A stretch of DNA of 64,000 bases from Desulfatibacillum alkenivorans DSM 16219 (GTDB lineage: Bacteria > Desulfobacterota > Desulfobacteria > Desulfobacterales > Desulfatibacillaceae). The DNA lies in NCBI RefSeq assembly GCF_900142135.1, contig NZ_FQZU01000002.1, forward strand, positions 248,001-312,000. Reading direction: 5' to 3'. The notes under the pieces were generated by a model. It did no database searches and had not been told where the DNA came from. It was given only the letters and a program-made list of their open reading frames with translations. Made by a program: the position numbers and the translations under genes. Numbering within the stretch: the stretch's first letter is position 1; every line of letters starts with the position of its first letter. Shown piece by piece: positions 902 through 57,946 of the stretch.

Positions 902-3900
902 TCAGGACCGCGCGCCCGGCGGATTCATTACTGGGGTGGTCCGCCTGTTTTTGGAATCCAAGCTGCCCATATTGTTCATCCTGTTCGCTATTGGCATGGG
1001 AGCGGCCAGCATTTACGTCACCCCCCGCGAGGAGGAGCCGCAAATCGTGGTGCCCCTGGCGGACGTGTACGTCCAGGCCCCCGGCGCCAGCGCCGAGGAA
1101 GTGGAAAAGCTGGTGGCAACGCCCCTGGAACGGCTGTTGTGGCAGATAGACGGCGTGGAATACGTGTATTCCACCTCCCACCGCGACATGGCCGTGGTCA
1201 CGGTCCGGTTTTATGTGGGCGAGGACCGGGAGCGATCCATCGTCAAGCTTCATAACAAAATAATGATGAATCAGGATCAGGCGCCGCCCATTGTCAAAGG
1301 CTGGGTGGTCAAGCCGGTGGAAATCGACGACGTGCCCATCGTCAACCTGACCCTGTATTCGGATAAATACGACGACCACGCCCTCACCCGTATCGGCCAG
1401 GAAGTCCTGGCGCGCCTCTCCGAAGTGGAGGACATTTCCCGCACGTCCATTGTGGGCGGCCGCAAGCGCGAGGTGCGGGTGGAATTGCTGCCCGACCGCA
1501 TGAACGGCCTGGGCGTGAGCATGCTGGAGGTGGGGCGGACCCTGGCCGGAACCGATGCGTCCGTCACAGCCGGATCCTTCTCACGCGCCAACAAGGATAT
1601 CACCGTCACGGCGGACGGATTCGTGTGCTGCGCCCGGGACGTGGAAAATCTGGTGGTGGGCGTCCACGGCGATCGCCCCGTATACATGCGGGACATCGCC
1701 AGGGTCATTGACGGGCCGGAGGAGGCTTTTTCGTACTCCCGGTTCGGCTATTCCCAGCATTATCGCCAGGAAAACGGCCTGGACGGCGAGCCTGTTGAAT
1801 ACCCGGCGGTCACCCTGGCCCTGGCCAAGAAAAAAGGCGTCAACGCCGTTAACGTGGCCCAAAACATCCACAAAAAAATGGAGGAGCTGAAAAAGGACGT
1901 GATCCCCCCCGACGTCCACGTCATAACCGCCCGGGACTACGGCCAGACCGCCCAAACCAAGGTGGACGACCTTTTAAGCTCTCTCTTTTTCGCCATCCTC
2001 ACCGTGGTGGCGCTTCTCATCTTTACCCTGGGCTGGCGGGAAGCCATGGTGGTGGCTCTGGCCGTGCCCATCAGCTTCGCCCTGGCCCTGTTCGTCAATA
2101 TGATGATGGGCTATACCATCAACCGGGTGACCCTGTTCGCCCTGATTCTTTCCCTGGGCCTGGTTGTGGACGACCCCATCACCAATGTGGACAACATCCA
2201 GCGCCATATCGGCATGGGCAAATTGAAGCCCAAGGGCGCCACCCTGTTCGCCGTGAACGAGGTGCTGCCTCCGGTCATCATGTCCACCCTGGCCATCATC
2301 GTGTCGTTTACGCCCATGTTTTTCATCACGGGCATGATGGGGCCGTATATGTCCCCCATGGCCGCCAACGTGCCCCTGACCGTTATATTCTCCACGGTCT
2401 GCGCGCTTACCATTGTGCCGTGGTTCACCTTTACTTTGCTTAAGAAAAGCGGGGTTCCCAAGGAAGCCGGCCAGGACGTCACCCCGGCCTGGATAAGAAA
2501 AGGCTACGCCTGGGTGATTCGGCCGTTTTTGGACTCAGGCCTGCGGCGCATCCTCCTGGGCCTGGTGGTGGTCGGGCTGCTGATTTTTTCCGCCTCTTTG
2601 GCTTTGTTCCGCCACGTGCCTTTGAAAATGCTGCCTTTCGACAACAAAAACGAATTCCAGATTATCCTGGACATGCCGGAGGGAACGCCCCTGGAAGCCA
2701 CGGACCGCGCGGTCCGCGCCTTTGAAGAATACCTCCGGGGCGTGTCGGAAGTGACCAACACCATTTCCTACGTAGGCGAGCCTTCCCCCATGGACTTCAA
2801 CGGCATGGTGCGCCACTATTATTTGCGCAAGGGCGGAAACCTGGCCGACATCCGGGTCAACCTGTACGACAAGGTCAGGCGTCAGGAACAAAGCCATGCC
2901 ATCGTATTGAGGCTCCGGCAGGACCTCCAGGCCATCGCCGATCAGCACGGCGTTGACATGAAAATCGTGGAAGTCCCGCCCGGGCCTCCGGTCATCTCCA
3001 CTGTGGTTGCGGAAATCTACGGCTCTCCGCATATGCAGTACCAGGATCTCATTGACGGCGCCGCTCATGTAGAGGAAATTTTCCGGCATGAAGATTTTGT
3101 GGTGGACATAGACGATACCACGGAAACGCCCCGGGATCGCCTGGACTTTGTGCTGGATAAGGAAAAAGCCGCCCTTCACGGGGTGACTACCGAAATGATC
3201 GCCCAAACCCTGCGTATGGCGGTGGGCGGCGCCAGCCCGGCCACGGTGCACGCTCCGGGGGAACGCCAGTTCCTGCCCGTGACGGTCATCCTGCCCCGGG
3301 CTCAACGGTCCAGCGCCCAGGGATTGTCGCAAATTCCCGTCAAGACCGCCGCCGGCAAGATGGTTGCTCTGGGCGAGTTGGGCGCCTTCCGGAAAATCCC
3401 GGTGGATCAGCCCATTTACCATAAAAATTTAAAGCCCGTGGTTTACGTGTTCGGCGAAATGGCAGGCAGGGCGCCCGGCGAGGCCATCCTGGATATGCAA
3501 TCCCGCTTAAAGGATAATCCGCCTCCTCCGGGCATCGAGGTGGATTGGGCCGGAGAAGGGGAATGGAAAATCACCCTGAGCGTGTTCCGGGATATGGGAC
3601 TAGCATATCTGGCGGCCTTTGCAGGCATTTACGTGCTGCTGGTCATCCAGATGAACTCCTTTTTCATGCCCGTGTTGATCCTCATGGCCATTCCGCTGAC
3701 ATTCATCGGCATCATGCCGGGATTCTGGCTGTTTAACCTGTTTTTCGCGCCGCCTGTGGCGGCCTTTGAAAACCCGGTGTTTTTCACGGCCACAAGCATG
3801 ATCGGCATGATCGCCCTGGGCGGCATTGTCATCAGGAATTCGCTGGTGCTCATCGAGTTTATCCAACAGGCCCTTAAAGAAGGCATGGGCCTGAAAGACG

Positions 3901-50249: not shown

Positions 50250-53200
50250 ATGCCCAGCATTTCATCGCCCCTAAAGGCTATCTTTTTCCTTTTTTTCTTC
50301 CTGATTCCATTAGCCGGCTTATGCCATGGCGCCACCATTACTGTGCCCGGCGACTACGCCAAAATCCAGGACGCCGTTTTGGCCGCTCAGGCCGGCGACA
50401 CGGTGGAGGTGGGGCCAGGAACCTATACGTTCACAGCTTATGAGGGCAACAACGCCGAGGCTGTCGCGGGAAGCAGCAATTGCACGGATCCTGGGAAAAT
50501 TATAGGCAAGACCAATAATTGGGGCGATGATGTTAAAATAGGGGCTGATGGATATATCATTGTGCGCATGGAAGAGGAAATCATGGACGGGCCGGGGGAT
50601 GATTTTTATGTCCATTGGTGGACGTCCAATGGCAACAGTTGGGGTGAATACGCCCATTATTACGTGGGAGGCTCAGCGTCCGGCCCCTGGACCCGGGTGA
50701 CCAGCGCATCCGATGCTTTTTCATGGTATCATTTTGGGGATTTGTCCACGGCGGGCGCAGCCAGCGCAAGGTATGTCAAGATTGAACCTGTCCTCGAAAA
50801 TTCGGATTGGACCCTGAACGTCAGGTTTGTGGAGGGGGATTTAAAATGGGATCCTCCCATTTATATCCCTAGCGCGATAACCTTAAAAGGCGCGGGGACG
50901 GGCCAGACCATCATTGACGGCGCCAACCTTAGCCCGGACGAGAGCATTGGATTTGTCAATGTAGGGCCGGACCCATGGTCAACGGTCCATTATGACGATT
51001 TTGCCGTGATCGCCGTAAACGCCACCGGCGTCGCCATTTCGGATTTGACCGTCAAAAACCATGGCTCCTATGCAGGCGTTCGCGGCTCCAGCAGTACCTG
51101 GGAACCCACCAATTTTTTAACGATTTCCGGGGTCGAAGTAAGCAATTGCTATACGGGAATGTCCTTTGGGGAAGGCTCCGACAATCTTGTGGTGGAAAAC
51201 TGTCTGGTTCACGATAACGCTCACGGCGGAATCCAGTGCGGCTCCAAGAACGTCAACGTGAATGGAAATGTTTTTTATCAAAACGCCGACGGGAGCGGAA
51301 ATAACGGATACGGAATCTCGGCGGCCTGGGCATGCGCCGGCAGATTCACAAACAATGTGGTTTTGTCTAATGATTATGGAATTACCGTACAATCCTCGGA
51401 GCTCGGCGCTCAAATAGATGTGTTGAATAACACCGTCGTTAACAACTCATCCGGTATACTCTTAAATAGTTGCACGGGCGCCGTTCGCGTCAAACGGAAC
51501 ATATCGGTCAATAATTTCAGCGGCGCCTCTGAGCTAAGCTGTTCGGTACCGCCTGACTTTGATTACAACATGGTCCATGGAAACACCCGCAATTATGAAG
51601 GGAACTCCACCGGCGCCAACGACATCCGGCTATCGCCCGTCTTTGTGGATAAAAACAGCGGCGACTACCATCTTCAGAATTCTTCTCCAGGCATAAACAT
51701 AGCCCCCCCCTCCACCCAATATGAATACCTGGATGTGGGCGGCGTTATTACGGATACCAGCGGGACCGCGTGCCGCGGCGCCGCCGGCGGCATGGCGACG
51801 CGAATACCGGACGAAGGGCCGAATTCCCATTTTTTCGGGACGTATCAGGTGACGGAAACGGTGGGCGACTGCGATCCCGTCACTAAAATTGTGGAAGTGG
51901 GAAACGATCCGACCAGGGTGTATAACCAGAATTATCTATACATTCCCGCGGCCGGCGGCTCCTTTCAGCACCAATGGACCGAACTTGATCTGGACGCCCG
52001 CACCATGTCCATGCTCATTTCCGATAAGGTTATAACAATCACGGATCAAGGCGTATGGGCCGGCTACTCTTACCAGGGATGGGCGGACAATTACACGGTC
52101 ACATTCGCTGAGGACTACAACAGCTTTACCTTTTCCGGCGCCTTGTCCGAGGACGGCGACGAGGCCTGCGTGGGCGCTAAAAGCGGAACCGGCGTCAGGC
52201 TTGACGGCGATGGGAATAATAAGCGTTTTTACGGCGCTTATATGATTACCGGGACGGAAGGGTCCTGCGACGAAGAAACCAAGTTTTTTGTCATCGGCGG
52301 CGACCCCGGCCGGATAGGATACGACAATTATTTGTATCTGCCAGCTTCCGGGACCAGCTTCACCTTTTCCGGGGAAAACATGGACGGCGATTACTGCCAA
52401 TGGTCCACGTCCATCAGCGGCGATTCCATCACCTTGAATAATGAGGGCTACGCCGTCGACAACCCGGATAATACCTGGTCAGAGCAGATTACAGCCGTTT
52501 TCGCCGCTGACCTGAACTCGTTCACCTACTCCGGGACCAGCCAGGACGACGACGCGGACCAATGCCAGGGGGTCATTACAGGCTCAGGGGCCAGGGTAGC
52601 TGAGGCAGGCCCCAATACCAGGTTTTACGGAAATTATATTATTGATGAAACCCTGGGCGCCTGCACGGAAAATGGCAAGGTGGTGGAAATCGGCAATGAC
52701 GCAAAACGCATCGGCGCAGAGTACTACATCTATCTTCCGGCGGAAGGCTCTGACTTTTCCTTCTCCTTTCGATACGACGACGGCGATGATTTTGCCGAGC
52801 GCCAGATTGCTGTGGCGTCGGACACCTTAACAATCGACACCGTGGGGGTATGGGTTTCCGATCCTTCCAAGGGATGGACCGAGCACATTGCTGCTCAATT
52901 CAGCGCTGACATGAACAGCTTGACCTACACAGGAACCCTTGCGGACGACGACCCTGCCGAGTGCCAGGGCGCCATGTCAGGAACGGGCGAGCGTATATCG
53001 ACCCAGGCGGATAACAGCCGGTTTTTTGGAAGCTGGCTTTTGTTTATGACCGAGGGGCCGTGCAGTGCAGAAGTAAAGGTCGTGACCTTTGGCGGCGACG
53101 CTTCCAAGAAAAACGTGGACAACTACATCTATCTGCCTCCAAAGGCGAGCCCTGTTTCCTACTCGGGCTTTTTTCAAACCGACGAGGCTCTGTATGATAG

Positions 53201-54107
53201 AACCCTCACCCTGGGGGCGAATTTTCTTAAAATGCACGATGACATCATGGACGCCGGCCTGTCCAAGACGGAAGAGTACACAGCAATCTTTCATAACGGA
53301 GTTCCTGAACGGGATTATGACGGAGAACCGCGCATTCAGGGCGGCATGTACGACGCCGGGGCCGACGAAACCGATGTACAGGGCAGCGGCCTGGACCTGA
53401 CCTGGGAGTTGGCCCTGAACCAGGAAATGGACCAGGAAGGCGCCATCGAGTACGAAGTCACAGGCGAGTCTGAAATGCAGGGCCTGACCCTGACGACGCC
53501 CTTGAATGAGGAGTTCGGCATTCCGTTCCGCCTCGAAGAAAACTCCCTGCAAGAGCGCTTTATTGACGGAACGTACTCCGTGGCAGCCTTTGGCGCCGAG
53601 GAAACCGGCGTTTTGTCCGGATCTTTTCCCGGCCAGTTTCCCGAGGTCTCCACACGAATAAAAGGCGATAAAAGCCTGTTTGTGGAATGGACGCCCTGGA
53701 CCGCGGCCGTGGGAAGCGAAGCGCAAATCAAGGTCATGCTGGAAGTGAATCACGACGAGATTTACTCCGTCTCCCTTTCCAGCAGTGCGACTTCCTGGGT
53801 TGCGCCTATCCAGGACATCGCCTCCGGTTTGTCGGGCTGCGTGGAATATGAGCTCATCGTCATGTTCACCAACACTTGCGGCGAGGGCATCAGCAAATCC
53901 ACAAGCAGAACTATTGATATGGACTGCTCCCAGGTCCCCTTGGGCGACTACAACGCGGATGAGGCCTTAACCCTGCAGGATTGCCTCCTGGGCTTGGAGA
54001 TTCTCACGGGAAAGGAAAGGGCTGTCTCCTTTGACCAGGACCCCACGGGCAACCAAAAGGTGGAGCAGGAGGACCTGATTTACATCCTTCGGGAATTGGC
54101 GGAATAG
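50250..54107 (+). CDS. Giant secreted beta-helix protein with four 132-aa repeats and dockerin-like end
   Basis: The protein has 1285 residues. A signal peptide (1-27) ends near LCHGATI. Residues 28-510 contain the pectate-lyase-like parallel beta-helix pattern (ITVPGDYAKIQDAVLAAQAGDTVEVGPGTY; VVENCLVHDNAHGG; NNTVVNNSSGILLNSC). Four repeats start at residues 514, 646, 778 and 911 with a G-x-G-x-R, N-x-R-F-x-G frame and paired cysteines such as SC-DEETK and ACTENGK. A mixed region to about 1215 includes an Ig-like part (SKSTSRTIDMDC). It ends with a dockerin-like calcium-loop pair (DYNADEALTLQD, then D-x(5)-N-x-K-V). It has no recognised enzyme motif. Surface adhesin or matrix protein is inferred. 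Confidence 0.85.
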   Translation: MPSISSPLKAIFFLFFFLIPLAGLCHGATITVPGDYAKIQDAVLAAQAGDTVEVGPGTYTFTAYEGNNAEAVAGSSNCTDPGKIIGKTNNWGDDVKIGADGYIIVRMEEEIMDGPGDDFYVHWWTSNGNSWGEYAHYYVGGSASGPWTRVTSASDAFSWYHFGDLSTAGAASARYVKIEPVLENSDWTLNVRFVEGDLKWDPPIYIPSAITLKGAGTGQTIIDGANLSPDESIGFVNVGPDPWSTVHYDDFAVIAVNATGVAISDLTVKNHGSYAGVRGSSSTWEPTNFLTISGVEVSNCYTGMSFGEGSDNLVVENCLVHDNAHGGIQCGSKNVNVNGNVFYQNADGSGNNGYGISAAWACAGRFTNNVVLSNDYGITVQSSELGAQIDVLNNTVVNNSSGILLNSCTGAVRVKRNISVNNFSGASELSCSVPPDFDYNMVHGNTRNYEGNSTGANDIRLSPVFVDKNSGDYHLQNSSPGINIAPPSTQYEYLDVGGVITDTSGTACRGAAGGMATRIPDEGPNSHFFGTYQVTETVGDCDPVTKIVEVGNDPTRVYNQNYLYIPAAGGSFQHQWTELDLDARTMSMLISDKVITITDQGVWAGYSYQGWADNYTVTFAEDYNSFTFSGALSEDGDEACVGAKSGTGVRLDGDGNNKRFYGAYMITGTEGSCDEETKFFVIGGDPGRIGYDNYLYLPASGTSFTFSGENMDGDYCQWSTSISGDSITLNNEGYAVDNPDNTWSEQITAVFAADLNSFTYSGTSQDDDADQCQGVITGSGARVAEAGPNTRFYGNYIIDETLGACTENGKVVEIGNDAKRIGAEYYIYLPAEGSDFSFSFRYDDGDDFAERQIAVASDTLTIDTVGVWVSDPSKGWTEHIAAQFSADMNSLTYTGTLADDDPAECQGAMSGTGERISTQADNSRFFGSWLLFMTEGPCSAEVKVVTFGGDASKKNVDNYIYLPPKASPVSYSGFFQTDEALYDRTLTLGANFLKMHDDIMDAGLSKTEEYTAIFHNGVPERDYDGEPRIQGGMYDAGADETDVQGSGLDLTWELALNQEMDQEGAIEYEVTGESEMQGLTLTTPLNEEFGIPFRLEENSLQERFIDGTYSVAAFGAEETGVLSGSFPGQFPEVSTRIKGDKSLFVEWTPWTAAVGSEAQIKVMLEVNHDEIYSVSLSSSATSWVAPIQDIASGLSGCVEYELIVMFTNTCGEGISKSTSRTIDMDCSQVPLGDYNADEALTLQDCLLGLEILTGKERAVSFDQDPTGNQKVEQEDLIYILRELAE

Positions 54108-55017: not shown

Positions 55018-55302
55018 ACACTGGGTTCCCGTTTCCGGGAGTCCGTCAGGATAATTGCATAACTGAGGCAATCATCCCGCCGCATCCCTCCACGGGGATG
55101 ACGGAGAGCAGCGGCAATACCCAGACAAAGGGGGGCGCCCATATATAAGGCCTTCAAGCGTCCTCTGTTCTTTCGATGGCCGCAAAATCTCGTCATCCCG
55201 GCAAGGGACGGTCTGTATTTAAAGACCGTCCTGCAAGCCGGAACCCAGCGCCATTATGGACTTGCCTTGAAAGGCAATTACTTGTTTGAACGCAACTTGT
55301 CA
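55018..55302. repeat. Long intergenic repeat family B, copy 2
   Basis: It aligns in order with 11041-11337. The inner hairpin GGACGGTCT (55206-55214) / AGACCGTCC (55223-55231) is a perfect 9-bp stem although several bases differ from copy 1. The outer CCCGGC/GCCGG stem is kept. It lies between the hicB remnant and the lipase terminator, with no coding sequence. Confidence 0.75.
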
Positions 55303-55356
55303 CCAGCCTGCAATAAAGATGGCGGCCTCCAAGCCCAAACGCCCGTATTTGAAAAC

Positions 55357-55390
55357 GCAAAAAAGGGAGCCCGGACTGACCGGACTCCCT
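55357..55390 (-). terminator. Intrinsic terminator of the lipase gene
   Basis: On the minus strand AGGGAGTCCGG-TCAGT-CCGGGCTCCCT is followed by seven T's, 43 bases after the lipase stop. Confidence 0.85.
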
Positions 55391-55432
55391 TTGTATTTCA
55401 AGGACTGTTTACATTTTTAGTTTGGGAATCAA

Positions 55433-56326
55433 TCAGTATCCCCTGTCCTTCAGGTCGCTCACGATGTCCACGAAGAAGTCGGGAGCGTCAAAACCGGGGG
55501 TGATGCCGAAAAGCTGGCCCACAATGTTCAGGTGATCCACGCCCAGGCTCCACCATGCGCCGTCTTCCACGCCGCGGAATTTGCCCCATTTGGCGCTTTC
55601 CACGCCGACCAGCCCGTCATTGGAGCCTTCGTAGCCAAGCATGATCAGCCAGGTGGGGGCCAGGACCACGCTGTTGCAGCCTGCTTTGGCCTTGGCGGCC
55701 CAGCTTTGGTAGTACACGCTGCTCAGGTTGGGCGTGTTGGGATTGAACACGTCGCTCATGTAGTCGGTCACCAGGTCGTAGCCGTTTTCCAGGCTTTGAG
55801 GATTGTCATCGCCGAAGATGAAGGCGTAGACAAAATCCAGGACGTCGCCGCCCACGCTCAGCAATCCGGAGGGAAGGCCGTTCATGATCAGGTCGGCGAT
55901 GCTGCTTCCCTGGTGGGGCCCTGCAATGCTGGTGTGGCTTTTGACGTAGCGGCCCAGGCTCAGGTTGGACATGGCGTACCGGGTGTATATGGTTCCGTGG
56001 GAGTGGCCGATGACGTTAATCTTGGAGGCGCCGGACACAGCCATGATTTGAAAAGCCTGACGCTGAAAGTCAGCAGCCTTGTTTTCCGTGGCGTCCATGC
56101 CGTTGACCGACGTGATGTACACTTCGGCGCCTTCGTCTTCCAGCGCTTCCTCAATGCCCCACCAGTAATCCATGATCCCCAGGATCTCGGCCGATGCGCC
56201 CATGCCATGGGCCAGAACCACCGGGTACTTGGTGTCGCAAATGTCCTTGCTGCCGCCGGCGAGCGCCAGTCCGGGAATCAGCAAAAGAGCGGCCAACGCC
56301 AGAATTAATGCTTGCTTCTTCATCAT
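55433..56326 (-). CDS. Secreted triacylglycerol lipase, Pseudomonas family I type
   Basis: The protein has 297 residues. A signal peptide (1-23) is cut near ALAGGS. The fold is alpha/beta hydrolase: oxyanion-hole VVLAHGMG (H40), nucleophile S109 in VIGHSHG, acid D237 in GSNDGLVG and H265 in GVDHLN. LSLGRYVKSHTSIAGPHQGSSIADLI is a family I.1/I.2 block. These lipases hydrolyse triacylglycerols outside the cell and need a membrane foldase; one is encoded at 48645. The structured leader at 56367-56460 predicts c-di-GMP control. ATG with GGGGGA upstream; an alternative ATG lies one codon later. Confidence 0.93.
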   Translation of the reverse strand: MMKKQALILALAALLLIPGLALAGGSKDICDTKYPVVLAHGMGASAEILGIMDYWWGIEEALEDEGAEVYITSVNGMDATENKAADFQRQAFQIMAVSGASKINVIGHSHGTIYTRYAMSNLSLGRYVKSHTSIAGPHQGSSIADLIMNGLPSGLLSVGGDVLDFVYAFIFGDDNPQSLENGYDLVTDYMSDVFNPNTPNLSSVYYQSWAAKAKAGCNSVVLAPTWLIMLGYEGSNDGLVGVESAKWGKFRGVEDGAWWSLGVDHLNIVGQLFGITPGFDAPDFFVDIVSDLKDRGY

Positions 56327-56366
56327 CGTTCTCCCCCTGAGAAGTTATGGTGTGGTGAGATAAAAC

Positions 56367-56460
56367 TAAAAAAGCCGGGTTGCCTCTGAAGTGCAACCCG
56401 GCTGTCTTTTATGATCAAGACCCGTGGCTTTCCGTCCCGGCCTCGCGACCGGTTTGGCAA
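56367..56460 (-). promoter_or_regulatory. c-di-GMP-I (GEMM) riboswitch with overlapping terminator, upstream of the lipase
   Basis: On the minus strand the leader reads TTGCCAAACC, then P2 CCGGTC-GCGA-GGCCGG with a GNRA loop, GGACGGAAAGCCACGG, then P3 GGGTCTT/AAGACAGCC, and ends GCCGGGTTGCA. This is the class I c-di-GMP aptamer pattern (56392-56459). The ligand-contact G (G20 of the Vc2 aptamer) and the facing C appear kept. The 3' arm GCCGGGTTGC (56402-56393) can instead pair with GCAACCCGGC (56383-56374) ahead of six T's. Ligand binding should therefore block termination: an ON switch. Confidence 0.87.
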
Positions 56461-56538
56461 AACGAATTGTTGATTTGGAATTCGCCCGGGTGAAGTGTAG
56501 GCTTTGAAGATCGTACTTTTTCACCCGCGTTGAACGGA

Positions 56539-56567
56539 ATTTATCTCAAAACTTCTACGCCTGTCAA
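56539..56567 (-). promoter_or_regulatory. Promoter of the lipase leader
   Basis: TTGACA (56567-56562), a 17-base spacer and ATAAAT (56544-56539) lie about 80 bases before the aptamer. They predict a leader of roughly 200 bases containing the whole riboswitch. Confidence 0.6.
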
Positions 56568-56663
56568 GAAAAAAATTCTACACATGGGTAAGAACACCGT
56601 TATAAATATCAGCCGTCATTCGGGTCGGATGCACCATGGGGCTGACCTGTTAATTTTGGCCCT

Positions 56664-57563
56664 TTAATCCAGTCGATCAGCCAAAAACCGTCCGCCGCGG
56701 ATCAACAGGGACCTTCCCAGGCCGGAGCGTCCTGCCAGGCCCTGGAGCACGTGGACCCTGCTGTTGTAAATTTCCAGGGCCGCATCCACGCCGTGGGCCT
56801 GGGCGCGTTCCACGGTTTCCCGGGCGTCGCAGCGGAGAAGCTCGCCCTTTGCCGCCTGAACCAAAATGGGCGGCAGGCCGGCGTAATCACCGTAGGCCGG
56901 GCTGATCAGAGGATTTTTCTTATCCGATCCGGCCGCGTAAAGGTCCGAGGCGTAGCGCACATACCGGTCCTGGCGATGCTTGACGCCCGTTCTTTGAAAT
57001 TGGCCGGACTTATTGCATTCGTACAGGTTGGTCCAGGGGGACATGCAGTAGGCTCCGGCCGGCAGGGGGAGGCTTTTTTGCTTGAGCGCCAGCAGCAGGG
57101 CCAGGGTCAGGCCTCCCCCCGCGGAGTCTCCTGCGATGACGATTTTTTCCGGCTTAACCCCGGAAGCCAGAATCGCGCCGTAAGCCAAAAGGGCGTCTTC
57201 CAAAGCCGCGGGAAAAGGGTGCTCCGGCGCCAGGCGGTAATCTATGATCACTCCCCGGGCCGAGGTTATGCGGCACAGGGCCGAGGCCAGGGGCCTGTGG
57301 GTGCTGATGGAGCCCATGAGATACGCCCCGCCGTGGAGGTACAACAGGGTCCTGCCGTCCGTATGCGCCCATCCGGTTATGATTTCCGCCGGCATGCTCT
57401 CTATGCGGGTTTTGATGATTTTGGCCTTTTGGGGCGTCCTGCCCAAAGTCTTGACGATTCCGTCCAGCATAAATCGTTGAAACCAAAGGGATTGGGGGCT
57501 GTCATTGAACATGGATCTTAACAGAACATTAGGTTTTTTCCGACCGTTGGATCTTGCCGCCAT
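56664..57563 (-). CDS. Alpha/beta hydrolase, hormone-sensitive-lipase-like esterase
   Basis: The protein has 299 residues. HSL signature LYLHGGAYLMGS (H77-G-G) forms the oxyanion hole. Nucleophile S147 is in IAGDSAGGGLTLAL. GVIIDYRLAPEHPFPAALEDALLAY is the classic family block. The acid is probably in GELLRCDARE and the histidine in SRVHVLQ, although that end is divergent. It has no signal peptide, so it is an intracellular short-chain esterase. AGGGAGGGG precedes the ATG. The palindrome at 57597-57610 in its promoter region suggests regulation. It is not co-transcribed with the lipase, which has its own promoter. Confidence 0.9.
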   Translation of the reverse strand: MAARSNGRKKPNVLLRSMFNDSPQSLWFQRFMLDGIVKTLGRTPQKAKIIKTRIESMPAEIITGWAHTDGRTLLYLHGGAYLMGSISTHRPLASALCRITSARGVIIDYRLAPEHPFPAALEDALLAYGAILASGVKPEKIVIAGDSAGGGLTLALLLALKQKSLPLPAGAYCMSPWTNLYECNKSGQFQRTGVKHRQDRYVRYASDLYAAGSDKKNPLISPAYGDYAGLPPILVQAAKGELLRCDARETVERAQAHGVDAALEIYNSRVHVLQGLAGRSGLGRSLLIRGGRFLADRLD

Positions 57564-57596
57564 CGCCCCTCCCTGGTTTGTTTGTTGGATAAATAA

Positions 57597-57610
57597 ACTG
57601 ACATGTCAGT
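57597..57610. promoter_or_regulatory. Perfect 14-bp palindrome, putative repressor operator
   Basis: ACTGACATGTCAGT lies 34 bases upstream of the esterase ATG. Its form is like TetR-family operators, but no such regulator gene lies nearby. Confidence 0.5.
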
Positions 57611-57946
57611 CTTTGCGGCAGAATAAAATTGAACGATCGGATTGTCAAGGAGATATAAGTTGGAAAGAGGCGATAAGAGCCCTGTCAGATCTCGAAACGG
57701 CCCCGGCGCCGCTCCTTTTTGGGGCATGCCGGGCAGGGTTTCCTATTCCAAATGTTTATGCAGGGTGCGGGGCTTGCCCCGCCCGAAGCAGGGGCTGGGC
57801 TTCCGGCCCAAAGAACGCGGGGACCGCGCAACCACAGCGAGGAGACCTCGCAACTACCCCTCCATCCGAATACAAACCGGAGACCTGGTTTACAAAATAA
57901 ACTGATGACGTGATTTGCACATAATGACGGCGCCCCGACCTCGGAA
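57611..57946. other. Intergenic gap with short GC-rich palindromes, no gene seen
   Basis: GGGGCTTGCCCC (57769-57780) and GCATGCCGGGCAGGG (57724-57738) occur here. Related sequence is found in reverse at 15494-15525 (GGGGCTTGCCC and TGCCCGGCATGC), so these are minor interspersed repeats. Short frames crossing the gap have no similarity to known proteins and no ribosome site. Confidence 0.45.

Follow-up and report, generated by a model that had tools for sequence, protein, structure and literature searches.

The GEMM-Ib riboswitches of Geobacter pilM (Gmet_0970) and pgcA (GSU1761) turn expression on by means of an aptamer and a terminator that exclude each other. For pilM, aptamer and terminator are described as mutually exclusive, and modelling indicates that the ligand must bind within a short interval, some terminator being formed even at high ligand concentration (PMC9262584); for pgcA the ligand is proposed to stabilise an antiterminator (PMC6456294). 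In both cases the terminator sequesters the C that pairs with the ligand (PMC9262584, PMC6456294). Transcriptional control through an intrinsic terminator is also found in Cd1 of Clostridioides difficile, which is by contrast an OFF switch whose aptamer and terminator can coexist (PMC9262584). The key nucleotides for ligand recognition in c-di-GMP-I aptamers are G20, A47, A48 and C92 (PMC3764141). An A20G substitution shifted the selectivity of a GEMM-Ib riboswitch from cGAMP to c-di-GMP (PMC6456294); in the cGAMP riboswitch, the pair next to the specificity position is C15-G40, and A12 touches the ligand through two hydrogen bonds with 96.5 and 99.8% occupancy in simulation (PMC6274999). Both the class of RNA and the ON arrangement proposed for the leader analysed here are already known, and it is the lipase target and the form of the RNA that stand out.

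The leader lies on the minus strand of the window, that is, the whole 64-kb stretch of Desulfatibacillum alkenivorans DNA under analysis. Scoring against the c-di-GMP-I model RF01051, as proposed in the preliminary description, identified a GEMM-I aptamer at positions 56468-56389 (minus strand) with 58.6 bits for a gathering score of 35 (E 7e-9; cmscan, Rfam 15), the match covering model positions 1-87 of 87. Our own model, R1, gave 77 bits on this copy, which was part of its training alignment. Alignment revealed that G20 (56458, the ligand-specificity position, G being the c-di-GMP type), A47, A48 and C92 are all present. RF01051 and the alignment placed the P2 helix at 56437-56452, A47-A49 of J2/3 at 56429-56431 and P3 at 56395-56429, while C92, the ligand-pairing C, stands at 56393 in a column invariant in 28/28. 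The GNRA helix (loop GCGA, 56446-56443), the P3 and the ligand-contact G and C that had been recognised earlier were thus all recovered. The interhelical C44-G83 pair is present as well, formed by C56434 and the bulged G56402 as assigned by alignment. With Vibrio cholerae Vc2 and the classic c-di-GMP-I aptamers, the window copy has in common the RF01051 score, G20, C44, A47-A49, a GNRA loop and C92. By contrast, G20 is flanked by a C21-G46 pair and not by G21-C46, the tetraloop is GCGA and not GAAA, the alignment shows a short P3 without the 11-nt receptor, and no P1 is evident. A classic Vc2-type aptamer was consequently rejected on its C21-G46 pair, its GCGA loop and its missing receptor. 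The GAAA tetraloop with its receptor in P3 is common, but not universal, in c-di-GMP-I RNAs.

The 3' end of this aptamer is built into an intrinsic terminator. On the minus strand, GCCGGGTTGC (56402-56393) is followed by ACTTCAGAG (56392-56384), GCAACCCGGC (56383-56374) and TTTTTT (56373-56368), and GCAACCCGGC is the exact reverse complement of GCCGGGTTGC, with nine bases between them. The last ten bases of the aptamer, C92 included, are exactly the 5' arm (56402-56393) of this 10-bp terminator hairpin (56374-56402), and the six-T tract (56368-56373) ends 41 bases before the ATG of the lipase gene at 56326, a second in-frame ATG being located at 56323. Letters and coordinates agree with the earlier claim that the 3' aptamer arm doubles as the terminator's 5' arm, and with the six T's and the 41-base distance to the lipase start given there. 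The hairpin alone has a predicted folding energy of -20.5 kcal/mol. No other hairpin in the 64-kb window answers to the same definition (10 perfect pairs, a loop of 3-12 and, no more than 2 bases away, six T's). Since more than one loop size suits it, the scan counted this hairpin as 4 placements; in 100 dinucleotide shuffles of both strands the total was 9 placements, a single hairpin again being liable to count several times. A generic terminator scan limited to loops of 3-8 missed this terminator because its loop has nine bases. The lipase start is preceded by a Shine-Dalgarno sequence, AGGGGGAG (56331-56338, minus strand). Upstream, a consensus scan located a promoter candidate, TTGACA-18-TAAATT (56538-56567, minus strand), which is weak when taken alone, since the scan of 55200-57700 returned 3 sites compared to 1.1 (sd 1.1) in shuffles. 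A 5' leader hairpin, GGGTGAA...TTCACCC (56487-56527, minus strand), is predicted between this promoter and the aptamer.

RF01051 matched four times in the host genome and four times in that of Desulfatibacillum sp. MAG7, the one other genome used for comparison within the genus. In alignment, the eight genus aptamers have the motifs GCC-AAACC and G(A/G)CGG-AAAG in common; their GNRA loop is never GAAA, their P3 is short, and the pair beside G20 is C21-G46, not G21-C46. RF01051 matched 281 of the 389 genomes of the order; none of seven other genomes of the family gave a match, although six of them have lipase relatives. A pattern describing the GC form was found in 154/389 genomes of the order, compared to two genomes for the backward pattern, and R1 confirmed 29 of 30 loci drawn from it. 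GC and GG types were then compared for terminators, and the comparison was repeated with one locus per genome because the first had used top-scoring GG loci. In this per-genome set, the GAAA loop was present in 27/30 GGC aptamers and 0/28 GCC aptamers, and a shared-arm terminator in 0/30 and 8/28, respectively, this genus being excluded from the 8/28. The 30 GGC aptamers derive from 29 of 30 loci (L216 unmatched at E 0.001, L226 with two; one aptamer has A20). Two of the 30 GCC loci, L142 and L143, duplicate L002 and L007 and were removed, L144 was unmatched by the model and L135 gave two aptamers; L138:579-661 and L135:698-777, for which there was no core call, were left out, and both carry a shared-arm terminator in the larger set. 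Under one fixed definition, this larger set contains shared-arm terminators in 11/37 G20/C21 aptamers (two being lipase leaders), where shuffled downstream DNA gives an expectation of 0.01 for the 37, in 2/4 A20/C21 aptamers, and in 0/30 top-scoring GG aptamers; such a terminator was likewise seen in one further match for which there was no core call.

The genus and the order offer several other arrangements. Besides the lipase leader, the host has three aptamers, a tandem pair and a single one, which lie ahead of secreted-looking proteins of 116 and 118 aa. Tandem GEMM-I aptamers, one base apart, occur in both genus genomes (host C76:33733-33898, L001 and L003; MAG7 C84:39659-39820, L005 and L008) ahead of the 116-aa secreted-looking protein, for which a scan of the L001 copy gave no Pfam match. 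At L002 and L007 (about 1497-1960), a GEMM-I aptamer is accompanied by a GCAGG...CCTGC hairpin just 5' of the Shine-Dalgarno sequence, with no T tract, perhaps pointing to translational control; the downstream protein is 118 aa long, secreted-looking and weakly DUF6160-like (below cut-off). In the copies tested, namely L001 and L002 together with L005 (twice) and L007 as their counterparts in MAG7, there is no shared-arm terminator. GAAA-type c-di-GMP-I aptamers (L027, L028, L029, L031, L032, L033, L039 and others) are repeatedly found ahead of large proteins that look secreted and begin alike (MDR/MVR..., DVTLAW), and fn3 matched 5/47 of the downstream proteins scanned. The GCC-type aptamers of L152, L155, L157 and L159 stand before different proteins that have nearly the same signal-peptide-like start, VKRLFLVLAAMILMAGSAQA, located 41-44 bases past the end of the model. 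Finally, L138 carries two aptamers about 0.8 kb apart (579-661 and 1460-1546, minus strand), both having a shared-arm terminator and a downstream protein of their own.

In the MAG7 ortholog of the lipase leader, aptamer, terminator, TTGACA block and Shine-Dalgarno sequence occur in the same order. The promoter block TTTTTTCTTGACAGGCGTAGA is identical, the letters of the Shine-Dalgarno sequence are the same and the core is conserved from GCC to GGGTTGC, whereas the stretch from promoter to aptamer, and with it J1/2, has diverged. No substitution affects the shared arm, and the private arm of the terminator differs at two C-to-T sites, so that 10/10 pairs are retained, two of them as G-U. An esterase gene (57563-56664, minus strand), hormone-sensitive-lipase-like (Abhydrolase_3), lies directly upstream of the riboswitch-lipase unit on the same strand, and the terminator could serve only to end transcripts coming from it, its overlap with the aptamer being incidental. 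We regard this as highly improbable, because the 5' arm of the terminator coincides with the aptamer arm in MAG7 as in the window, because a conserved promoter-like block separates the esterase and lipase genes, and because the shared arm recurs in the GC form while it was found in none of the 30 GG-type aptamers of either sample.

If the leader is a switch, the polymerase would first make the GEMM-I aptamer, in which CCGGGUU could fold into P3 and leave C92 free for the ligand. Binding of c-di-GMP before the next ~20 bases emerge would lock P3 and C92, making the 5' arm of the terminator unavailable, and the resulting read-through would allow the lipase to be made; in the absence of ligand, the shared ten bases would pair with GCAACCCGGC and transcription would stop in the T tract. 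The preliminary description had already proposed that the ligand holds the arm and lets transcription pass, a logic in line with what is published on pilM and pgcA. When the leader was folded from 56530 at every fourth length, P3 was fully formed in the minimum-energy structures between 138 and 150 nt, and from 154 nt onwards these contained the terminator. At full length, the predicted terminator fold is more stable than the aptamer-held fold in the window (-44.3 compared to -33.0 kcal/mol, a gap of about 11) and in MAG7 (-36.3 compared to -29.1 kcal/mol, a gap of about 7). Control would thus be kinetic and ligand capture would have to be fast.

The prediction that the full-length leader adopts the terminator fold when no ligand is bound would also fit a decaying aptamer, one that binds its ligand poorly within a leader whose main effect is to terminate constitutively and so keep the lipase low. 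At the position matching A12 of the cGAMP riboswitch, presumably A18 in Vc2 numbering, the alignment shows U in the window copy and A in MAG7, this position being A in 30/30 GG-type and 26/38 GC-type rows (two of these 38 rows repeat a site already read). Furthermore, the predicted ligand-free fold of the window pairs the U-rich J1/2 with A47-A49, which the MAG7 fold does not, and a simple contiguous-pair test detected no evident P1 in the window copy or in its MAG7 ortholog. However, the sampled GC-type group likewise shows no P1, its mean pairing in a crude contiguous-pair test being 2.6 bp compared to 2.5 bp in shuffles, a result that does not support a conserved P1 in this type; the GG type gave 3.3 compared to 2.7 bp, a modest support (this test left aside two duplicates and three further rows, two having no C92 call and one no core call). 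Moreover, PMC3764141 does not count A18 among its highly conserved positions. Window and ortholog have nearly identical aptamer cores despite the divergence of the preceding stretch, which argues for selection, and decay of the aptamer appears to us unlikely.

The nature of the ligand was considered from the RNA and from the enzymes of the host. Position 20 is G in 8/8 genus aptamers in the alignment, A20, the mark of the cGAMP type, being absent. The pair beside it is nevertheless the C-G pair of the Geobacter cGAMP riboswitch, and so the window aptamer looks like a cGAMP form with a c-di-GMP-type G20. The same ON switch could consequently respond to 3',3'-cGAMP, or to both dinucleotides, and its non-GAAA loop and short P3 are consistent with this, the Geobacter cGAMP aptamer likewise having a short P3 and, as its tetraloop, GCGA. 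A20 forms of the same pattern matched 11/96 genomes of the order; the host genome gave no match to the A20 pattern. The host has one SMODS CD-NTase and 28 GGDEF matches, in which we took the last Asp of GHxxGD as the specificity column, equivalent to Ser348 of GacA. This column holds Asp in 22 matches, Thr in one (L185, a GADEF domain) and Ser in none; L187, which lacks a GGDEF motif, has Gln there, the column could not be read in L188 and L191, and the truncated matches L189 and L192 do not reach it. The CD-NTase and the Thr-type domain speak for such a cGAMP switch, whereas the lack of Ser-type domains, the lack of an A20 match in the host and the G20 of all genus aptamers speak against it, as does the change of selectivity caused by A20G in the GEMM-Ib aptamer (PMC6456294). 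A response to cGAMP is in our opinion quite improbable, and c-di-GMP, although favoured rather than proven given the shared C-G pair, is the likelier natural ligand.

Taken together, these results lead us to propose that the lipase leader is probably a transcriptional ON riboswitch for c-di-GMP, like those of pilM and pgcA. This proposal is favoured by the RF01051 score, by the exact shared arm that is rare in shuffles, by substitutions in the private arm that preserve pairing, by the pilM and pgcA precedents, by the selectivity associated with G20, by the order of folding, by the terminator counts in the GC form and by the GGDEF column. It is weakened by the U at A18, by the lack of an evident P1, by the greater stability of the terminator fold, by the Thr-type GGDEF domain and the CD-NTase, by the 26/37 G20 aptamers that have no shared-arm terminator and by a comparison within the genus that covers a single further genome. 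Compared to the Geobacter switches, the window leader has G20 instead of A20, a lipase as target and U at the A12/A18 position. More tentatively, and with rather less than even confidence, we suggest that the GC form (G20, C21-G46, a non-GAAA GNRA loop, a short P3 and often no P1) may constitute a second, widespread form of c-di-GMP-I RNA, in this order often fused to a shared-arm terminator and mostly placed before secreted or surface proteins; cGAMP switches could arise from it via a single G20A change, and the U-rich J1/2 of the window copy may add a second lock on the off state by pairing with A47-A49. A G20 form of cGAMP-like RNA may already be known to specialists.

The gene that follows the leader (55433-56326, minus strand) encodes a LipA-family protein of 297 aa with a Pfam Abhydrolase_1 match and a GHSHG motif. 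A profile of 12 lipase homologs found the lactonizing lipase of Pseudomonas aeruginosa, 1EX9, with an E value of 5.7e-35. Counting residues from the second Met (56323), S108 (of GHSHG), D236 and H264 are invariant in 12/12 homologs and, with roles taken from the 1EX9 alignment, are predicted to be the Ser-Asp-His triad of what is by prediction a LipA-type triacylglycerol lipase. The N terminus, judged by eye, is signal-peptide-like and secretion is predicted, in keeping with the secreted lipase named in the first reading of this DNA. A terminator candidate of 13 pairs follows the gene (55362-55392, minus strand), the consensus scan of the region having returned 5 compared to 3.9 (sd 2.0) in shuffles. 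With the LipA enzymes of Pseudomonas and Burkholderia, which are associated with a foldase, the window lipase shares the profile match, GHSHG and the presence of PF03280 in the region. By contrast, its foldase gene is set apart: the lipase foldase (Lif, PF03280; 48645-49835, minus strand), the single PF03280 match of the host genome, lies 5.6 kb downstream on the same strand without adjoining the lipase gene, and a plus-strand ORF for a NosD-like protein of 1285 aa (50250-54107) is located between the two. A foldase relative was found on the downstream side of the lipase in 35/96 lipase loci (some loci being present twice) and was absent from the 3 kb examined at the MAG7 locus. The lipase-foldase pair thus seems to be split in Desulfatibacillum.

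To what extent lipase genes elsewhere carry this leader was addressed from both sides. Over 96 lipase loci, R1 gave strong matches only at L009, the window's own locus, and at L055 and L010, which are one MAG7 locus present twice; the next-best match, at L100, had an E value of 0.034 (75 of the 80 named lipase loci have at least 250 nt upstream). Conversely, the proteins downstream of the sampled aptamers amount to 67 references, 65 of them distinct, and among these 65 the 12-lipase profile found only L004 and L006, both lipases of this genus. A Pfam scan of 47 downstream proteins placed Abhydrolase_1 in 2 members, among the matches listed (25 of 68 families), and further hydrolase families may occur among the rest. 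Lipase control as a general theme of these riboswitches was accordingly rejected, the lipase target being limited to this genus within the samples. A lipase as target of a c-di-GMP riboswitch was not found in our searches of the openly licensed literature.

The window RNA offers a compact test of c-di-GMP versus cGAMP specificity on one RNA form, and a test case for ON switching by kinetic means where the opposing terminator is very strong. Cultured Desulfatibacillum degrade alkanes and fatty acids. If our reading is true, a secreted LipA-type lipase would be under the direct control of c-di-GMP through an RNA, which would tie the use of lipids to the attached state.
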